Below are positions 20,662-33,316 of a stretch of DNA of 64,000 nt, one piece after another (position 1 is the first letter of the stretch; each line of letters starts with the position of its first letter). A model generated the notes under the pieces. The model searched no databases. It was given only the letters and a program-made list of their open reading frames with translations, and was not told the DNA's origin. The stretch is from Acidobacteriaceae bacterium (GTDB taxonomy: Bacteria; Acidobacteriota; Terriglobia; Terriglobales; Acidobacteriaceae), in contig JAOAPC010000016.1 of assembly GCA_025462735.1 (NCBI GenBank), forward strand, positions 1-64,000. Direction: 5' to 3'. The translations under genes were made by a program, and so were the position numbers.

Positions 20662-21492
20662 TCAGCGCGGACGCAGAACTTGATACCGTGTAATCGTGTA
20701 GCCGAGGGCCGCTCCAAGAAACACGTCCGAAGGAAAATGAGAGAGCGTGGTCACGCGAGAAAAGCTGATCGCGGTCGCGAAAGCATACGTTACAAAGGGC
20801 ACCCAGCGGTGGTTGCGATACCGGGTGGCGACGACCGTGGCCACGGAAAATACACCGGCGGCATGCCCGGACGGGAATGAGCTGCCCTTAAACGGAGACA
20901 CTCCGCCACTAAAAAATGTGTCGTTAAAAGGCGCTCCAGGTCGAACATCGCTAGGGCGTTTTCTGCGAGTGACCGCTTTCATAGCAAGATCAACTACGGC
21001 GCTGTCAGCGTAAGCTTCCCCCGCCAGTAAGGCCGTACTCACCTGGTAAGTATCGTGCCGAACGTAGCCTGCAATCAGAAGAGAAGCGGGCACCGCTATC
21101 ACTTCCCCCGTAGTAATCGGGGAATCGAAAACATCATTGATGTCGTCGAGGTTCCTCGAGTGATTGCGAAAATAGGGCATGACGTGGGGATCGGCTACGA
21201 TGAGGCCCGCGGTTCCGCCTGCGATAGCAAGCGTCGGTAACAAGTAGCGCCCTTTCGCCCACTGAGTGGGGAAAAGCCAGATGTTTTTCTGGTCTTGGAG
21301 AAAGTCCTTGGGCAATGACCGCCAAGACACTTCTCGATCAACGTCATTGCCATGTTTTGCTCGGGACGACTGCGATGGACTGTCAGGCAAATCGGCATGG
21401 CCGCCCTGCGCATAAGCCAGGTTAGGCGTAGTCCAAATTCCCGCACAAAAGACGACCACAACAAGTAGAAACAGCTTCTGTCTCGAACGCAT
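20662..21492 (-). CDS. PAP2-family phosphatase
   Basis: ATG 21492 (MRSRQKLFLLVVVVFCAGIW) gives a signal or anchor; an upstream ATG at 21585 would add 31 residues without hydrophobic character. The PAP2 signature is complete: KAVTRRKRP (K-x6-RP), SSFPSGHAAGVFS (PSGH) and SRVTTLSHFPSDVFLG (SR-x5-H-x3-D). It is a membrane-associated phosphatidic acid or undecaprenyl-diphosphate phosphatase-type enzyme with its active site toward the periplasm. Several hydrophobic helices surround the motifs. No neighbouring gene fixes its substrate. Confidence 0.9.
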   Translation of the reverse strand: MRSRQKLFLLVVVVFCAGIWTTPNLAYAQGGHADLPDSPSQSSRAKHGNDVDREVSWRSLPKDFLQDQKNIWLFPTQWAKGRYLLPTLAIAGGTAGLIVADPHVMPYFRNHSRNLDDINDVFDSPITTGEVIAVPASLLIAGYVRHDTYQVSTALLAGEAYADSAVVDLAMKAVTRRKRPSDVRPGAPFNDTFFSGGVSPFKGSSFPSGHAAGVFSVATVVATRYRNHRWVPFVTYAFATAISFSRVTTLSHFPSDVFLGAALGYTITRYQVLRPR

Positions 21493-21680
21493 CGAGCTTT
21501 GATGCACGTTTCTCAGACGGAGAAATCCATTGGGCTGGCATAAGTGCAGAGATTTTGGAACGCGTTGACTTTTGAATTGATTCACAGCTGGTCAGTGGCG
21601 GGCAACTCAGAAGCGACTATTGTAATCGGGCGATTGCACTTCAGAAATCGGTTGTGAGTGAAATGGGGATGTTGAATCCG

Positions 21681-22196
21681 CTACTGTTTTGTTATGACAC
21701 CACAGGCGATACGGTCACCGGAGTTTCCGGCAGGATCGGTTTTCATGTCGTCGGCCTTGGCATGGATAACTAGCGCCGTTCCCCCATTGCTGAAAATGGA
21801 GTGGCTGTCATTTTCCCAATTCACGTCTCTGTTGACAATCTGCGTTTTCGCCTTGCCATTAGCGTCCACGGTGAAGTTTTGCATGTCGCCCGCGTGGTGG
21901 CCTTCAGGATTCTCAAACCCATGCTTCTTGTTGTCAGGATTGAAATGGGGACCGGCCGACTTGAAATCCGGGGCGTCGCACTTTGGATTTTGGTGGATAT
22001 GGATGGCGTGCTCTCCCGGAGGCAAATTATGCAAGTCGAGCTGAATCACCATGCCATCGCTCTCATACATAAACGCCGAACCTACGCTTTTGCCTTGGGC
22101 ATCCTTCAGTTCGACCGCAACCTTGGCAGCGCTGGCCAAAGACAGAGTCAAGACGCTCAGAACCAGCATGCCAGCAAATGAGGTGTCGTTTTTCAT
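21681..22196 (-). CDS. sodC: Periplasmic Cu/Zn superoxide dismutase
   Basis: Converts superoxide to hydrogen peroxide and oxygen. Signal peptide at residues 1-24 ([14 protein letters not shown]). The fold follows: G-E-H-A-I-H-I-H (copper ligands), [31 protein letters not shown] (bridging and zinc histidines, zinc Asp), and [20 protein letters not shown] with the last copper His. A C-terminal IACGV provides the second cysteine of the conserved disulfide. All metal ligands appear present. Standing alone, monocistronic. Confidence 0.95.
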
Positions 22197-25594: not shown

Positions 25595-26515
25595 ATGAAA
25601 TATATAACTCGACTTAAGATTGCTTGGGCGAACACCACTATTGTCAATAAGTTGAGCTTCTTGCTCACCCTTGTGATAGCTGCCGCAAACATAGCGTACG
25701 TCTGCTATGCGCGCAAACAGTTCATCACCATGAGTGGACAACTTGGTGAGATGCAATCCAGCAGCAAACAAACCGACCAACTGATTGGCTTGTATGGGCA
25801 ACAAGTTGGTGAACTCCGCAGGCAGGCGAGCGACACTCATGAACTCGCGGTGCAAGCGAAAAATCAAGCTGATGCAGTCAGAGGTCAATTGCCGGAATTG
25901 AAGCTTGCCGCAAAAGCGTCCCAGAACGCTGCGAACATCGCTAGGGACACACTGCAAATCAGCCAAGGGGCCTATGTCAGCATAGGGCGCAAGGACGGAG
26001 TTATAGCTGAATTCAAGAAATCTACCAGTCCAAAGTTTAGCGACGGGCTGGTTATGTATTTTCAAAATAGCGGACATCTCCCTGCCACATTTAACTGGGG
26101 AATTGAACCATCCACCCTCCCACTGCGCCCTCATCCGTTCGCGCCAATGATGCGTACTAGAAATAAGAAAACTGGAGCTATATCGGAATCGTTTAGTGGA
26201 GCTGCCGTAATCGGCGGGGAATCCGTCCAACAATTCACTGTTGGCGATCTTCCTCCAGGCTTCATTGATTCCATGTCCCAAAGCAATCAACCCCTGACGG
26301 TTAACGGAACGTATGAATATTGCGACGAACTGGGGAGATACTCCTGCAAGATGTTCAGCCTCTACTACCAGCGAATTCCTTACGACAACTTTCGGTTATT
26401 AATTGAACAAGAATGTCCTGATCGTTCTTTCCTCGGTAAAACCGTGCCCGACCCAGAGGAAGAAACTCTGCCCGTTTGCACCAACCAACAAACTCCACGA
26501 TTTCCAAATCGCTAG
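25595..26515 (+). CDS. Membrane-anchored coiled-coil protein, unknown family
   Basis: 306 aa. One N-terminal helix (LSFLLTLVIAAANIAYVCYA, residues about 20-39) is followed by a long amphipathic coiled coil (about 45-128: Q-L-G-E-M-Q, DQLIGLYGQQVGELRRQASD, A-K-N-Q-A-D-A-V-R). A beta-rich extracytosolic domain (about 130-275) contains Q-I-S-Q-G-A-Y-V-S-I-G-R and YEYCDELGRYSCKMFSLYYQ. This anchor, coil and beta-domain order is seen in many uncharacterised bacterial proteins, often annotated only as hypothetical. No neighbour suggests a role; the next gene is convergent. Confidence 0.7.
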   Translation: MKYITRLKIAWANTTIVNKLSFLLTLVIAAANIAYVCYARKQFITMSGQLGEMQSSSKQTDQLIGLYGQQVGELRRQASDTHELAVQAKNQADAVRGQLPELKLAAKASQNAANIARDTLQISQGAYVSIGRKDGVIAEFKKSTSPKFSDGLVMYFQNSGHLPATFNWGIEPSTLPLRPHPFAPMMRTRNKKTGAISESFSGAAVIGGESVQQFTVGDLPPGFIDSMSQSNQPLTVNGTYEYCDELGRYSCKMFSLYYQRIPYDNFRLLIEQECPDRSFLGKTVPDPEEETLPVCTNQQTPRFPNR

Positions 26516-26533
26516 AACCTCTTGACATTTTCG

Positions 26534-27340
26534 CTACGGCTTCGCGCGTTGCGCTTTTGGTTTTTCCGGCTTTCGTACTTTTGGCTGCGTTTCTTCTGCG
26601 GAGCAAGTACCGCCCTGAACGGGCTCCCAATAAGCCCCCTGTGCGTCCAGCGTTAGCAGGTCAATGGGCCCGCCTACCTCTTCCGGGTCAGTTTTCTCTT
26701 CAAGCTCCACTAATTTACGCGCGATTTCTTGGTCAGAGTATCCTTTCACAAAACTCGGGTTCGTCTGCCTTATACGCGCTATTTCTCTAGTTTGACCTAG
26801 GAAAAACATGTTCCAAGTGATGTCCGGGCACTTGCCGGGACAAGTGTACGTGTGGGGAATAAACTTTAGGTTCTTTCGGGAATCGCCTGATTGCACAAAA
26901 TCCAGATGCACCATCGTAGGCACTCCATTTTCAATTCCAAAAAACAGTCCTTCGGCACATGAGAGTTTCGAGCAACCATCAATTACAGGCTGGGGTGCCA
27001 TTTTTGCGGTGCGTTTAGCCATCTCGTCGCTTTTTAGGGCAAGCCGATGCGCAGCCTCCGCGACGGTAGCTGATGTTTCCATTGCCTGCAAAGCAAAAAT
27101 CATTAATTGACGAGCATCAACCTCGCTCGTTGTAGCAACGAAATATATGTGCCCAAATCGCTGGATTTTGCACGAGAACTTATGTTCCTCCTGAGATGGT
27201 GATGCTGGGTCAACACCAATCCACAAGCTGTCCGCTGCAACGACGAAGTGCTTGGGAGTTCGGACCACAACTACCGTCGTCCCTTCCAGCTGGGCGCAGC
27301 CGAGGCACATGAGAACCGAAATCAGGGTGAGTGTTTTCAT
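26534..27340 (-). CDS. Secreted proteasome-like Ntn hydrolase
   Basis: 268 aa with an N-terminal Sec signal (LTLISVLMCLGCAQLEG). The mature protein would begin TTVVVVRTPKHFVVAADSLW, the N-terminal strand and turn of proteasome beta/HslV-type hydrolases. Thr21 would be the nucleophile (Thr1) and Asp37 falls exactly at the Asp17 position. Lys58 in F-S-C-K-I matches Lys33 with a few extra residues. Unlike HslV it is exported and no HslU-type ATPase is near. A KPEKPKAQRAKP-like basic tail follows. Removal of the signal peptide at Gly20 would free the catalytic Thr (inference). A lipobox alternative (Cys15) would leave Thr21 internal and inactive. Confidence 0.75.
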   Translation of the reverse strand: MKTLTLISVLMCLGCAQLEGTTVVVVRTPKHFVVAADSLWIGVDPASPSQEEHKFSCKIQRFGHIYFVATTSEVDARQLMIFALQAMETSATVAEAAHRLALKSDEMAKRTAKMAPQPVIDGCSKLSCAEGLFFGIENGVPTMVHLDFVQSGDSRKNLKFIPHTYTCPGKCPDITWNMFFLGQTREIARIRQTNPSFVKGYSDQEIARKLVELEEKTDPEEVGGPIDLLTLDAQGAYWEPVQGGTCSAEETQPKVRKPEKPKAQRAKP

Positions 27341-27393
27341 ACTGGAACCGTCACTTTATGGTCGGGACTCGCTGGCTCGCAAATGCCTTCCAC

Positions 27394-30300
27394 CTACCTC
27401 GCCGGCACCTTCTCCTCCACCGGCCGCGGCGCATTTTCTTCGTGGCTTAAAAAGAAGTGCACCGCTGGGGTGATGATCAGCGAGAGCACCATTGAGATCA
27501 GGATTCCGCCGATCACCGCGATGGCCAGCGGCTGCAGCATCTGCGAACCGGCTCCGAGGGCAAATGCCAGTGGCAACATCCCGGCCATCGTAGCGAGAGC
27601 AGTCATCACAATCGGCCGCAAACGGCGGCGGCTGGCTTGCAGCATGGCGGTTTCGGCGGTCGCTCCGGTAAGGCGTATCCTCTCGTCCGCGTCGAGCAGC
27701 AGAATGCCGTTCTTGGCAACGATTCCGACCACCATCACCAGCCCCATAAACGAAGACACGTTGAAGGTGGTGCCCGTCACCAGCAGGGCGATGAATACGC
27801 CTGAGGTCGAGAGCAGCGCCGAAGCCAGAATCGACAGCGGCGCGGCAAAGGTGCGGAACTCAAACAGCAGCACAATGAAGACCAGGACAATGGCCAACGC
27901 CAGCACAAACAAGAAATCGCGGAACGATTTCTGCTGCTGTTGGTAGGTGCCGCCATATTCGACGCGGATCGCCGGAGGTAGATGCAAGGCGCTGACCGCT
28001 TTCTGCACGCCTTGGATGGCGCTTCCGAGATCGGTGCCTTCGGTGCGGGCGGTGACCGAGACTTCGCGCTGCAGATTCTCACGGTGGATTTCGTTCTGCG
28101 GCGGAAGTTCAGTGACCGTAGCTAACGAACCCAGCGTAGCGGTACGTCCGCTGGCGCTGGTCAGCAAGGTGTTTGAAATCGATTCGAGCGATGCCCGTTT
28201 GTCGGCGGGAAAACGGACCCGCACCGTGTACAAGCGGTCGTTTGAAACTATCGGCGCAACCGCCGGTTCGCCTTCGACGATGGCTGCTGCATCGAGCGCC
28301 ACTTCCTCAGGCGTGAACCCGGCGCGCGCGGCAACGGCGGGAACGATCTGGAAATTTACTGCCGGAGAGCTGATGGTATTTTCCAACCCATCCAGGACAT
28401 CGACCACGCCGGGCACGCCTTTGTGGGTCTTTTCGTCGTAACCAATCGCCTCTGCAACTTTGGGGGCCCAGGTAGTGAGCAGCGATGGATCCTGGGCGAA
28501 CAACTTTATGGTGACCGGCTCGGGCTCTCCGGTCAGGTCGCCGATCATGTCCTGCAACACTTGAATAAATTCGGTGCGCACCGCCGGCTCTTCCGCGTTC
28601 ACCTTCTGCCGCACATCTGCCATCACTTCGTCGATTGCGCGGCTGCGCTTTTGCTTCAACTTCACCAGGACGTCACCGCGATTCGCTTCGGTGACAGCGG
28701 CCAGTCCTAATTCCGAACCTGTCCTCCGCGAAGTGCTCTCCACCTCCGGGATGGTTTTTATGATCTGCTCAATGTGCAGGATCATGCGGTTGGTTTCAGA
28801 GAGCGAAGCTCCGGCTGGGGTCCAGTAATCAAGGGTGAATCCGCCCTCATCCATCTCCGGCAGAAGGTCGGTTCCCATGAAGCGGAAACAAAAGTAAGAC
28901 CCGACCACTAACACCACGCTCAGGCCGACGAGCCACCACGGCTTCTGCAAAGCCCGCCGCAACCAGCGTTGATGGAACTCAATAATGTGGCGGAAGAAGT
29001 TGCCGGTCGATGCTTCTTCGGCGGCCAGCAAGTCCTCAAATGATTCCTCTTTGTTCTCGTCTTCACTATCTCCGTTGCTGTCCTTCCTTCGGATGAGGAA
29101 GCTGCTGAGGGTCGGAGTCCAGGTCAAAGCCAGCGCCAGCGAGGTGAAGAGAGATACTCCGAGAGTCAACGCCAAGGCGCGGAAGAAAGTCCCATACACT
29201 CCGGTGATCGAAATCAACGGCACCAGCACAACGATGGGGGTAACGGTTGAACCGACGAGTGGTATCGTGATTTCGCGGAGCGCGCTGCGAATGGCCTGCA
29301 GCCTGCCTTGACCGGCATCACGATGCAGAACGATGTTCTCGACTACAACAATCGCGTCATCAATTACCAAACCGACCGCTGCCGCGAGTCCGCCGAGGGT
29401 CATCAAATTGAAGGTCTGACCCAGCAGCTTGAGCACGATAAAGGTGATCAGGATGGTGACCGGGATGACCAACCCCGCAACCACCGAACTTCCCCAGTCG
29501 TGCAGAAACACAACAATGATGATCGAGGCCAGCAGCAGGCCGAGCAGGATTGCATCACGTACGCTCTTGATGGATTCACTTACGATGATCGACTGGTCAT
29601 AGAAAGGCTTGACCTCAACCCCCGGAGGCAGTGACTTTGCGATGTCCGCCATCGCCGCATGTACTTCGTTGGCGACGTCCAGCGAGTTGCTCTCGGGCTG
29701 GCGATTGATGTTGAGCAGCACCGCCGGTTTTCCGTTCGCGGTGATGATCGTATAAACCGGTTTCACCCCCGGAACCACTTTGCCCAAGTCGCCTACGCGG
29801 ATAGGAATGCCGGTGGAAGTCGACTTTACCACCACTCCCGCAAGTTCATCGGAAGTGCGCACCTGCCCGCTGATCAACCCAAGTACCAGCTGGTGATTAC
29901 GCTCGAACAGGCCAGGCGAATCGACGATATTGGTGCGCTTGATTGCATCAAGCATGTCGGTGACGGTCACGCCCGCACTCAGCAGCTTGGCAGGATCGGG
30001 CTCGATTTGAAACTCCGGCTGCTGGCCCCCTTGAACGATGACTGTGGCGACACCATCCAGCCGGTTCAATCGCGGCTTCAAGTCGTAGGTCGCGAGTTCC
30101 CAAAGCTGGGTCTGCGCCACCTTGTCCGAAGTCATGCTGTAGCCGATGATGGGAAAGCTGGCAAACGTCATCCGGTTGGCGATAACCGCGGCTGTAGGCG
30201 GAAGCTCCGCCTGGACCCGCGAGATGGCCGAGTTCACATACTGCAGCGTCTGGAACATGTCTACGTTCCAGTCGAAGAAAAGGTCAATCTCCGCCGATCC

Positions 30301-30558
30301 GCGGCTGGTGTTCGACCTGACCTGCAGTAGTCCGGGCACGCTGTTCACTGCTTCCTCAATCGGACGCGTGATCATGACCATCATTTGATCGATGGGCATC
30401 ACGCCGTTATCGACGGCGATCAGAATTCGCGGGAAGTTGGTGGTAGGAAAAACTGCGACCGGAATGGTAAATGCAAGGTAAACCCCCAGCACCGCCAGGG
30501 TGATGATGAGGAAGATGAGCGGCTTGGAGTGGCGCGCAAACCAGTGAGACTCGTTCAA
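27394..30558 (-). CDS. RND-family efflux transporter, inner-membrane permease
   Basis: About 1,055 aa. Proton-driven trimeric pump exporting substrates through the TolC-like channel. Seen: N-terminal helix with SKPLIFLIITLAVLGVYLAF, porter loops, TM4-6 region GGLAAAVGLVIDDAIVVVEN with the paired Asp of the proton relay, and the C-terminal half with SSFMGLVMVVGIVAKNGILL. The GLVIDDAIVVVEN form is closer to multidrug (HAE) than to heavy-metal (HME) pumps; substrate unknown. Start: TTG 30558 with GAGGG 7 nt upstream is preferred; an ATG at 30612 would overlap the adaptor gene by 41 nt. Last gene of a three-gene operon. Confidence 0.92.
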   Translation of the reverse strand: MNESHWFARHSKPLIFLIITLAVLGVYLAFTIPVAVFPTTNFPRILIAVDNGVMPIDQMMVMITRPIEEAVNSVPGLLQVRSNTSRGSAEIDLFFDWNVDMFQTLQYVNSAISRVQAELPPTAAVIANRMTFASFPIIGYSMTSDKVAQTQLWELATYDLKPRLNRLDGVATVIVQGGQQPEFQIEPDPAKLLSAGVTVTDMLDAIKRTNIVDSPGLFERNHQLVLGLISGQVRTSDELAGVVVKSTSTGIPIRVGDLGKVVPGVKPVYTIITANGKPAVLLNINRQPESNSLDVANEVHAAMADIAKSLPPGVEVKPFYDQSIIVSESIKSVRDAILLGLLLASIIIVVFLHDWGSSVVAGLVIPVTILITFIVLKLLGQTFNLMTLGGLAAAVGLVIDDAIVVVENIVLHRDAGQGRLQAIRSALREITIPLVGSTVTPIVVLVPLISITGVYGTFFRALALTLGVSLFTSLALALTWTPTLSSFLIRRKDSNGDSEDENKEESFEDLLAAEEASTGNFFRHIIEFHQRWLRRALQKPWWLVGLSVVLVVGSYFCFRFMGTDLLPEMDEGGFTLDYWTPAGASLSETNRMILHIEQIIKTIPEVESTSRRTGSELGLAAVTEANRGDVLVKLKQKRSRAIDEVMADVRQKVNAEEPAVRTEFIQVLQDMIGDLTGEPEPVTIKLFAQDPSLLTTWAPKVAEAIGYDEKTHKGVPGVVDVLDGLENTISSPAVNFQIVPAVAARAGFTPEEVALDAAAIVEGEPAVAPIVSNDRLYTVRVRFPADKRASLESISNTLLTSASGRTATLGSLATVTELPPQNEIHRENLQREVSVTARTEGTDLGSAIQGVQKAVSALHLPPAIRVEYGGTYQQQQKSFRDFLFVLALAIVLVFIVLLFEFRTFAAPLSILASALLSTSGVFIALLVTGTTFNVSSFMGLVMVVGIVAKNGILLLDADERIRLTGATAETAMLQASRRRLRPIVMTALATMAGMLPLAFALGAGSQMLQPLAIAVIGGILISMVLSLIITPAVHFFLSHEENAPRPVEEKVPAR

Positions 30559-30571
30559 CGTGTTTCCCTCG

Positions 30572-31888
30572 CTACTCCTTTTGGCTGCTTCCTTCGGGTT
30601 GGTTCTTGTCATCCGGCTTGGCTTCGGCGGTAGTGATTTTGGTGGCGTCGGGGAGTCCGTAGGCGCCTGTGCCGACGATCTTCTCGCCAGCCTGCAGGCC
30701 GTCGATGATCTGAACGCGGTCGCCGTCGCGAATCCCTGTCTTCACCGGCCGCTGGTGCGCCTTGCCATCGCTTCCGGCAACCATGACGGATGTGGTCCCA
30801 TCCTGCGCAGTCAGCAGGGCCACGGCAGGGATTACCAACGCGTCCGGCACAGTGCGCGCGATCATGGTGATTTGCGCGCTGGTTCCCGGCCGCAGCCGCT
30901 CGTGCGGATTCTTACCCTGCACCCAGACTTCAACCGTAGTACTGTTGGGATCAAGCGCCGGACTCACCAGCACCACCTTGGCTGTGATCGGCTGGTCGGT
31001 TCCCGAGGCCGCGATGGTGGCGCCGTCTCCCACCTTCAACTGCACCGCCTCCAATTGTGGAATGTGAGCGCGGGCAACCACTTGCGAAATATCCATCACC
31101 GTCAGCAGCGGCGTTCCCGCCGAGGCCATCTCTCCGGGATAAAGAGGACGGTCGGTTATGACACCACTGATCGGACTCTTGATCTCCGAATAGCCGAGTT
31201 GGGCCGCGGCTCCCTGAAATTTCCCCTGCGCGGATTCGAGCTGCCCTTTGGCGGATTTCAAAGTTTGTTGTTTGCCGATGGCGTTCAACGCGTCCAGGTG
31301 CCGCTTCGCGATTTCGTACTGATTTCGCGCATTGGTGAAATCCACGGCTGACTGGTCCAGCTCTTTGCGCGGCAAGGCACCCTGCTCAAACAGATCTTTA
31401 CGGCTGGCGTAAATCTTCTGCTGTGCTTCGAAGGCCTGCCTGGCGGCCTCGGCATCGAGCTGCGCCTTCTGCAATTCTTGCGGAAGATCGGCAGCAGTGG
31501 TGGCCGTGTATGCAGCTTCCGCCTGCGTATACGCGCCTTTGTTCTCTTGCGCGGCCGCGGCCAGATCGCGGTTTTCAAGCACTGCCAGCAACTGCCCCTT
31601 GCGCACATGGGCTCCGCGATTTACCAGAAATTTCCGCACCGGCGCGCTGATCTTCGGCACAATGGCGGATTGCGCAATGGGAAACAGCACGGCATCAGCG
31701 GTGACTTTCTGCTGCAACGCGGTGCGCTCCACTTGCACAATCTGGACGGGCACGGTCGGCTCTGCCTCTTTGGCTTTACTAGAGCAGCCCGTCGTCGTTG
31801 TTATTGTTAATACTGTTGCGACGGCCAGTGCGGATGAAAGCGCCAGCGGCAAAGCCCTCCGGCTGAGTTTGAATTTTTCTTGTTTCAT
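30572..31888 (-). CDS. RND efflux periplasmic adaptor (HlyD/MFP lipoprotein)
   Basis: 438 aa. Lipoprotein signal ending TITTTTGCSSKA with Cys35 for acylation, so it is tethered to the inner membrane. Features in order: a first lipoyl half (IVPKISAPVRKFLVNRGAHV, R-K-G-Q-L-L-A-V-L-E-N-R-D-L), a coiled-coil hairpin (about 120-215: DAEAARQAFEAQQKIYASRK), the second lipoyl half (GYSEIKSPISGVITDRPLYP, G-E-M-A-S-A-G-T-P-L-L-T-V), and beta-barrel and membrane-proximal domains (V-G-D-G-A-T-I-A-A-S-G, IVGTGAYGLPDATKI end). It links the permease to the TolC-like channel. Second gene of the operon, 45 nt after the outer membrane gene. Confidence 0.93.
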   Translation of the reverse strand: MKQEKFKLSRRALPLALSSALAVATVLTITTTTGCSSKAKEAEPTVPVQIVQVERTALQQKVTADAVLFPIAQSAIVPKISAPVRKFLVNRGAHVRKGQLLAVLENRDLAAAAQENKGAYTQAEAAYTATTAADLPQELQKAQLDAEAARQAFEAQQKIYASRKDLFEQGALPRKELDQSAVDFTNARNQYEIAKRHLDALNAIGKQQTLKSAKGQLESAQGKFQGAAAQLGYSEIKSPISGVITDRPLYPGEMASAGTPLLTVMDISQVVARAHIPQLEAVQLKVGDGATIAASGTDQPITAKVVLVSPALDPNSTTVEVWVQGKNPHERLRPGTSAQITMIARTVPDALVIPAVALLTAQDGTTSVMVAGSDGKAHQRPVKTGIRDGDRVQIIDGLQAGEKIVGTGAYGLPDATKITTAEAKPDDKNQPEGSSQKE

Positions 31889-31933
31889 TCTGCTTTCAAT
31901 TCTGCTGAACCGAATCCAAAGCCCGGGGGCATT

Positions 31934-33316
31934 TCAGAACTTTCCCGTAAGCGTTTGGAGATTGGCTACCGCTACACGGTAGCGCACTTGCCCGTCCCCA
32001 AAGGCATTCTGCGCCTGGGTGAGCGTGTTCTGGGAATCCACAACTTCGAGGGCCGTTGCCTCACCCGCCTGATAGCGCAAGCTAGTCAGGCGCAGGCTCT
32101 CAGCAGCGAGATCCGCCGACTGCCGCAATGAATCCAGCTCCGAACGTATGGTTTGAGCCTGGCTGAAAAAATCCTTGAGATCGGCTGCCATCTTGCGCTG
32201 AGCGAAACTCAATTCTACTTTCGCGAAGTCGCGTTGCAGTTGTGCCGATTTCACTTTGCTGCGCGACGAACCCCAGTTCCAGATGGGTATCTGCAGCGTG
32301 GCCGCAGCCGAATCGCCGAGGTTGTGCAGACGAAGGTGAGGCGTGATGGTTTGGTCAATCCCAGTGGCGGCAAACTGGTTGGCGTCGATGCCGTAGAAAT
32401 AGTCGAGCCCGAGTGTGGGAAGGAAACCGTTCCACGCCGCTGCGACTTCGTGGTTGGCCGCCTTCAAGGAGGCCAGTGCAGCCCTCAACTGAGGATTGTT
32501 GTTGCCGGCCAGGGTCTCGACTTCGGCGAACGACGGCAAGGCTCCGAGATTTTCGGGGTCATCGACCACAATGAAATTTTCGTTGAAGTTCGGGAATATC
32601 AGGACCGCCAGTTCCAGATGGCTGCGGTCCATTTCGAGCTGGGCGTCTTGCAGGGCGCGCTGCTGCTGCTGGGCCTGCAGCTGGGCTTTGATGGTATCAG
32701 CATGGGAGACTTCGCCGCCGCGCTCCAGCTTGCCAGTGATATCGAAGAAATGCTGCGCCTCGCCGGCGGCCCGCTGAGCGATGGAAAATTTGCGCTGCGC
32801 TACTACCGCTCCGTAGTAAGTCTGGGTAATTGTGACAATCAGGCCGCGTGCGGCAATTTCGGATTGCGCCCTGGCGAGTGCCTCCTGCTCCTGCGCCCGG
32901 CGGTAGTCGGCAACCGCCACCCACGAGAGCTCCTGGTGCACAGTTCCCTGGCTGATGTACTCGTGCACCCCGTTGTTGGCAATGAAGCGTCCCAAGCCGA
33001 CGCCATTGCCCTCGGTGTAAATGTAGCTCGCGTTGTAATTGACGTTCGGCAATAAAACAGCGCGGCTCTGCACTCGAGCTTCTCTGGCGACTCCATATTG
33101 AGTCAGCGCGGCCCGATATTGCGGCTCGTTGGCTTGGGCGCGGGTCAGCGCATCCTGAAGCGTGATCGTTATCGGCGTGGTGAATGCGACCTGATTTAAT
33201 TGCTGCGGGTTTGACTGCTGCGCGGGCGCAGCCCCGGATGCGCAAAGCAAAACGCTGACTGATGCAACCAACAACATTGGATTTTTTTTCAATGCTGACC
33301 GCTGTGCTGTGTTCAT
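31934..33316 (-). CDS. TolC-family outer membrane efflux protein
   Basis: 460 aa. A signal peptide (LLVASVSVLLCASGAAPAQQ) is followed by two similar halves of alpha-hairpins. Seen: ITLQDALTRAQANEPQYRAA (start of the first OEP repeat), long helical segments, and the second OEP half at about residues 260-455 (NNPQLRAALASLKAANHEVA, LRYQAGEATALEVVDSQNTL, YRVAVANLQTLTG). The LRYQAG..T.LEVVDSQ..L motif is typical of the family. It forms the outer-membrane channel of the RND pump coded downstream. Start ATG 33316; the divergent intergenic region to 33566 carries the second LuxR pair's promoter. Confidence 0.93.
   Translation of the reverse strand: MNTAQRSALKKNPMLLVASVSVLLCASGAAPAQQSNPQQLNQVAFTTPITITLQDALTRAQANEPQYRAALTQYGVAREARVQSRAVLLPNVNYNASYIYTEGNGVGLGRFIANNGVHEYISQGTVHQELSWVAVADYRRAQEQEALARAQSEIAARGLIVTITQTYYGAVVAQRKFSIAQRAAGEAQHFFDITGKLERGGEVSHADTIKAQLQAQQQQRALQDAQLEMDRSHLELAVLIFPNFNENFIVVDDPENLGALPSFAEVETLAGNNNPQLRAALASLKAANHEVAAAWNGFLPTLGLDYFYGIDANQFAATGIDQTITPHLRLHNLGDSAAATLQIPIWNWGSSRSKVKSAQLQRDFAKVELSFAQRKMAADLKDFFSQAQTIRSELDSLRQSADLAAESLRLTSLRYQAGEATALEVVDSQNTLTQAQNAFGDGQVRYRVAVANLQTLTGKF

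Follow-up and report, generated by a model that had tools for sequence, protein, structure and literature searches.

The window, a stretch of 64,000 nucleotides from an Acidobacteriaceae bacterium (contig JAOAPC010000016.1), carries on its minus strand a gene for a protein that begins MKTLTLISVLMCLGCAQLEGTTVVVVRTPKHFVVAADSLW..., and the features of this gene are collected in Table 1. The original prediction had read it as an exported proteasome-type Ntn hydrolase, and the elements that it named, namely the open reading frame, a signal-peptide-like N terminus, and the residues Thr21, Asp37, and Lys58, are all present in the sequence. No promoter or terminator pattern was found in 26300-27700. 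Upstream, 53 bp from the start of the gene, lies a block encoding an RND efflux pump (PF00873) together with adaptor-like and outer-membrane-factor-like proteins (27394-33316, minus strand), a neighborhood taken as chance context. Two other open reading frames on the same strand were assigned by eye, one with a signal peptide as a Cu/Zn superoxide dismutase (21681-22196) and one as a PAP2-type phosphatase with a PSGHA motif (20662-21585).

Table 1. Features of the gene and of its protein; counts refer to the 41 acidobacterial members of the family, or to those that reach the position.
Feature	Position	Strand	Basis or remark
ORF, exported proteasome-type Ntn hydrolase (predicted)	26534..27340	-	268 aa + stop; stop codon 26534-26536, coding part 26537-27340
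Predicted signal peptide, residues 1-16 (MKTLTLISVLMCLGCA)	27293..27340	-	putative signal peptidase I site A16|Q17; sequence, Gln +1 bias, pattern in 14 relatives
Proposed propeptide QLEG, residues 17-20, last residue Gly(-1)	27281..27292	-	class B alignment; model overlay on beta5 propeptide
Thr21, equivalent to catalytic Thr1	27278..27280	-	Thr in 38/41, Ser in 3/41; residue-1 position picked by eye from the motif; superposes on Thr1
Asp37, equivalent to Asp17	27230..27232	-	kept in 40/41
Cys57, near-universal, likely disulfide with Cys246	27170..27172	-	40/41; 12 relatives with exactly these two Cys
Lys58, equivalent to Lys33	27167..27169	-	kept in 41/41
Thr71, at the position of oxyanion-hole Gly47	27128..27130	-	Gly in 37/41; alignment column nearly invariant G
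Cys123 and Cys128, possible local disulfide	26957..26974	-	pair absent from relatives; cysteine positions
Cys167 and Cys171 (CPGKC), possible local disulfide	26828..26842	-	common to many relatives; alignments, cysteine positions
Cys246, C-terminal partner of Cys57	26603..26605	-	36/37

As had been proposed, no ATPase gene is apparent beside the gene, and neither a ring partner nor an ATPase was found at the locus. The genome encodes its HslV, the sole PF00227 match that it holds, on another contig (C11:427129-427638), where it adjoins an AAA_2 match representing an HslU-type ATPase (C11:425964-426821), and the ordinary HslVU system is thus separate from the gene in the window. Among the homologs, no neighbor gene recurs, except where the loci are close copies of each other.

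Across 396 genomes of the phylum, eight clear, full-length relatives were detected in seven genomes, with 22-27% identity. A profile search, run first on the same 396 genomes and next on 398 genomes of the window's family, enlarged this set to 41 sequences, the window protein included and four of them fragments. The distribution of the gene is patchy: 67 of the 398 family genomes match at E 0.001, a count in which many matches are weak and some are probably HslV, and the seven other genomes of the window's genus among those listed have no match. When a genome-contig collection was scanned with one protein, no relative was found; the same scan with a small alignment returned five loci only, all acidobacterial, and a search of viral contigs, plasmids, and phages returned none. 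One locus (L057) carries two different family members in tandem on its minus strand, one of class B and one a divergent class A protein (TIIVVIYTPDGYWIGSDS) that resembles members at two other loci, L025 and L027 (both classes are defined below).

Taken alone, the window protein has no Pfam match at E 1, hence no PF00227 hit, no match to PDB sequences, and nothing meaningful in NCBIfam, with no match to the HslV model. A profile of nine sequences matches chains of proteasomes, BPH, and HslV with Thr1, Asp17, and Lys33 aligned, and a profile of 34 sequences matches 163 PDB sequences; among the 60 matches listed, all are proteasome, BPH, or HslV. Singly, 10 of the 34 members match PF00227 at E 0.1 or better (best 7e-4), all below the Pfam cut-off, and a comparison of the family with the HslV of a related genome by hhalign gives 8e-8. 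Given these profile matches and the conservation of the triad, the proteasome-type resemblance goes far beyond chance. Structure prediction, on which the claim of an Ntn fold had been made to depend, returned a proteasome-type fold. A first AlphaFold model, from nine sequences (pTM 0.65), already matched proteasomes, and a second, from 34 sequences (mean pLDDT 87.2, pTM 0.82), superposes on beta5 of the yeast proteasome over 174 residues (Z 17.8, rmsd 2.8), with Anbu close behind (Z 16.8). In these structural alignments, among the matches listed, residue 21 of the model is paired with residue 1 of the chain, and its residues 15-20 overlie the propeptide remnant of beta5 in yeast proteasome mutants. 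Judged by its predicted structure, the window protein is a member of the proteasome-like family (PF00227 in the broad sense), with a four-layer alpha-beta-beta-alpha fold.

The catalytic triad is in register, as had been claimed: Thr21 and Asp37 are 16 residues apart, and the positions of Asp17 and Lys33 are conserved throughout nearly the entire family (Table 1). Lys58 does align with Lys33, though it lies 37 residues past Thr21 instead of 32, five residues further along, because the S3-S4 loop is longer. A feature that the earlier reading had overlooked is Thr71, which occupies the position of Gly47 in the oxyanion hole, a residue that proteasomes are reported to conserve strictly (PMC4792962). 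Because of this replacement, we are unsure whether the window protein is active. It may have kept the fold as a weak or inactive enzyme, for instance a binding protein, having lost the oxyanion glycine that most members keep, and inactive subunits do exist in proteasome families. Yet Thr1, Asp17, Lys33, and Gly(-1) are all retained, the oxyanion group is a backbone NH, available from threonine as well, and one relative (L053) likewise has threonine at this position with its triad intact. A weak or inactive enzyme seems unlikely to us, though activity should not be presumed.

The prediction of export is supported by two lines of evidence: a hydrophobic core lies immediately ahead of the catalytic residue in nearly all members, and the cysteine pattern agrees. 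In the window protein, a charged start, a hydrophobic core, and an AxA-type site were recognized by eye and with a simple scan. From their N termini and cysteines, most members look exported. Cys57 and Cys246 are both near-universal, and 12 relatives contain exactly these two cysteines and no others, which suggests a disulfide between them. The number of cysteines is even in 32 of the 34 exported full-length members (binomial p = 3e-8, a value that treats related sequences as independent and makes too strong a case), and the 12 proteins with two cysteines make the better argument. One relative (L020:1504-2154) begins with Met-Thr and lacks both the signal peptide and the two conserved cysteines; it is probably a cytosolic member, in which Thr1 would be exposed by removal of the methionine. 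The signal peptide of the window protein also raises the question of lipidation, in which case the mature N terminus would be Cys15. The sequence CLGC|A has glycine at -1, and the corresponding position in another member (L056) holds a better lipobox (LSAC). However, the window protein's own lipobox, judged by eye, is atypical in having cysteine at -3, most relatives lack a cysteine there, and even a lipidated enzyme could still be released by autolysis at Gly20-Thr21. We regard a lipoprotein as very improbable.

How the N-terminal threonine becomes exposed appears to divide the family into two classes. Among the 38 sequences not read as cytosolic, the residue at -1 is alanine in 17, glycine in 17, serine in two, glutamine in one, and cysteine in one. 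Class A comprises about 20 relatives whose AxA-type signal-peptidase site ends immediately before Thr1 (AVVSA|TT, SQATA|TT, AAEA|TT, AKAHA|TT). In class B, an AxA-like site is followed by glutamine (14 of 15 proteins; glutamate in the other) and a stretch of 3-12 residues with Gly(-1) last, and then by Thr1 or Ser1 (AGA|QVEAG|T, ALA|QVQHG|T, LWA|QYVHG|T, AVA|QDG|S). Histidine is common at -2 in class B, a residue that also occurs there in proteasome beta5 (PMC4792962). The window protein reads GCA|QLEG|TT, with glutamine past the AxA-like site and Gly(-1), and by this pattern, which it shares with 14 other relatives, it belongs to class B. A tree built from the mature domains only places nine class B proteins in one well-supported group (100/99), and the class label switches few times on it; the window protein is not placed within that group, which counts against the self-cleavage proposed for it below.

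The original prediction held that signal peptidase could directly create the catalytic N terminus. This part of it fits the class A sisters, where that activation route is best seen (VSA|TT, ATA|TT, AHA|TT), better than the class B arrangement of the window protein. A crude scan of ~464 kb of the same genome (the window and L070-L089) gave 79 candidate signal peptides, and glutamine follows the AxA-type site in 19 of these 79 sites, the window protein included, compared with 4% glutamine overall. A similar bias, the Q-rule, has been described in Bacteroidetes and was called specific to that group by its authors (PMC5837995). The excess of glutamine at +1 across this genome favors A16|Q17 as the signal-peptidase site; if the cut falls there, QLEG would have to be removed at Gly20-Thr21, the bond equivalent to that cleaved in proteasome beta subunits, where Thr1 attacks Gly(-1) (PMC4792962).

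The cut at Gly20-Thr21 could also be made by signal peptidase I itself, with autolysis unneeded. The enzyme tolerates glycine at -1 and leucine at -3, both found here, and Gly20 could thus serve as its -1 residue, a point against autolysis of QLEG. An AxA-type site abuts Thr1 in about 20 relatives, and some proteins of this type are among those with the shortest tree paths to the window protein. On the other side, the residue at -1 is glycine and not alanine, that at -2 is glutamate, a better AxA-like site with glutamine lies four residues earlier, and the Q...G|T pattern is retained in 14 other relatives despite variable spacing. A direct cut is a serious but rather unlikely reading of the window protein, for which autoproteolysis after removal of the signal peptide seems more likely on the sequence patterns.

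We propose, with a probability of roughly 55%, that the window protein is an exported, stand-alone proteasome-like Ntn hydrolase that removes QLEG from itself, Thr21 then being active outside the cytoplasm. Sec export and cleavage by signal peptidase I past Ala16 would produce an N terminus of QLEG-Thr21, on a folded domain held by the Cys57-Cys246 disulfide. Autolysis at Gly20-Thr21 would then strip QLEG, in the manner of the Gly(-1)-Thr1 self-cleavage of proteasome beta subunits, and the freed Thr21, together with Lys58 and Asp37, would hydrolyze a peptide or amide outside the cytoplasm with no ATPase; the nature of the substrate is a guess. Proteasome subunits gain activity only upon assembly, a point against this proposal.

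Compared with the beta subunits of the 20S proteasome, the window protein has the same predicted fold, the Thr1-Asp17-Lys33 triad, and a Gly(-1) ahead of Thr1, but it is predicted to be exported and is likely disulfide-bonded, its predicted propeptide is just four residues long, Gly47 is replaced by threonine, identity is 13-19%, and no alpha subunit or ATPase partner is seen. The triad and N-terminal strands of HslV align with the family, but HslV acts in the cytosol together with HslU, and the genome has its own, separate copy. Anbu and BPH resemble the family in predicted fold (Anbu) and in profile match (BPH), while the description of them in PMC8665760 includes neither a signal peptide nor a propeptide. 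That study reported 22 new proteasome homologs, reported no co-occurring AAA partners, stated that no members other than proteasome beta and HslV have propeptides, and mentioned neither signal peptides nor the periplasm nor Acidobacteria (Fuchs et al., 2021; PMC8665760). Those 22 homologs are likewise stand-alone genes, with no neighboring AAA ATPase and no conserved context; the family of the window protein, predicted to be exported and in part to carry propeptides, differs from them as the paper describes them and may be one of the 22. No exported proteasome homolog was found in the open-access literature searched, and the present protein is most safely called an exported proteasome-like variant.

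For the phylum, we consider it probable, if well short of assured, that Acidobacteriota hold secreted or periplasmic proteasome-type hydrolases with a conserved disulfide, and that over evolution these have alternated between self-processing, by way of a short propeptide ending in glycine, and a Thr1 made by signal peptidase. Within the family, there seem to be two routes that expose the N-terminal threonine, cleavage by the export signal peptidase or self-removal of a tiny propeptide. The proteasome-like relatives known so far are regarded as intracellular enzymes, and this branch is predicted to be exported. Its two N-terminal designs would offer a way to ask how self-processing of the proteasome type arises or disappears, and the branch itself a way to ask whether such enzymes work alone where ATP is absent.
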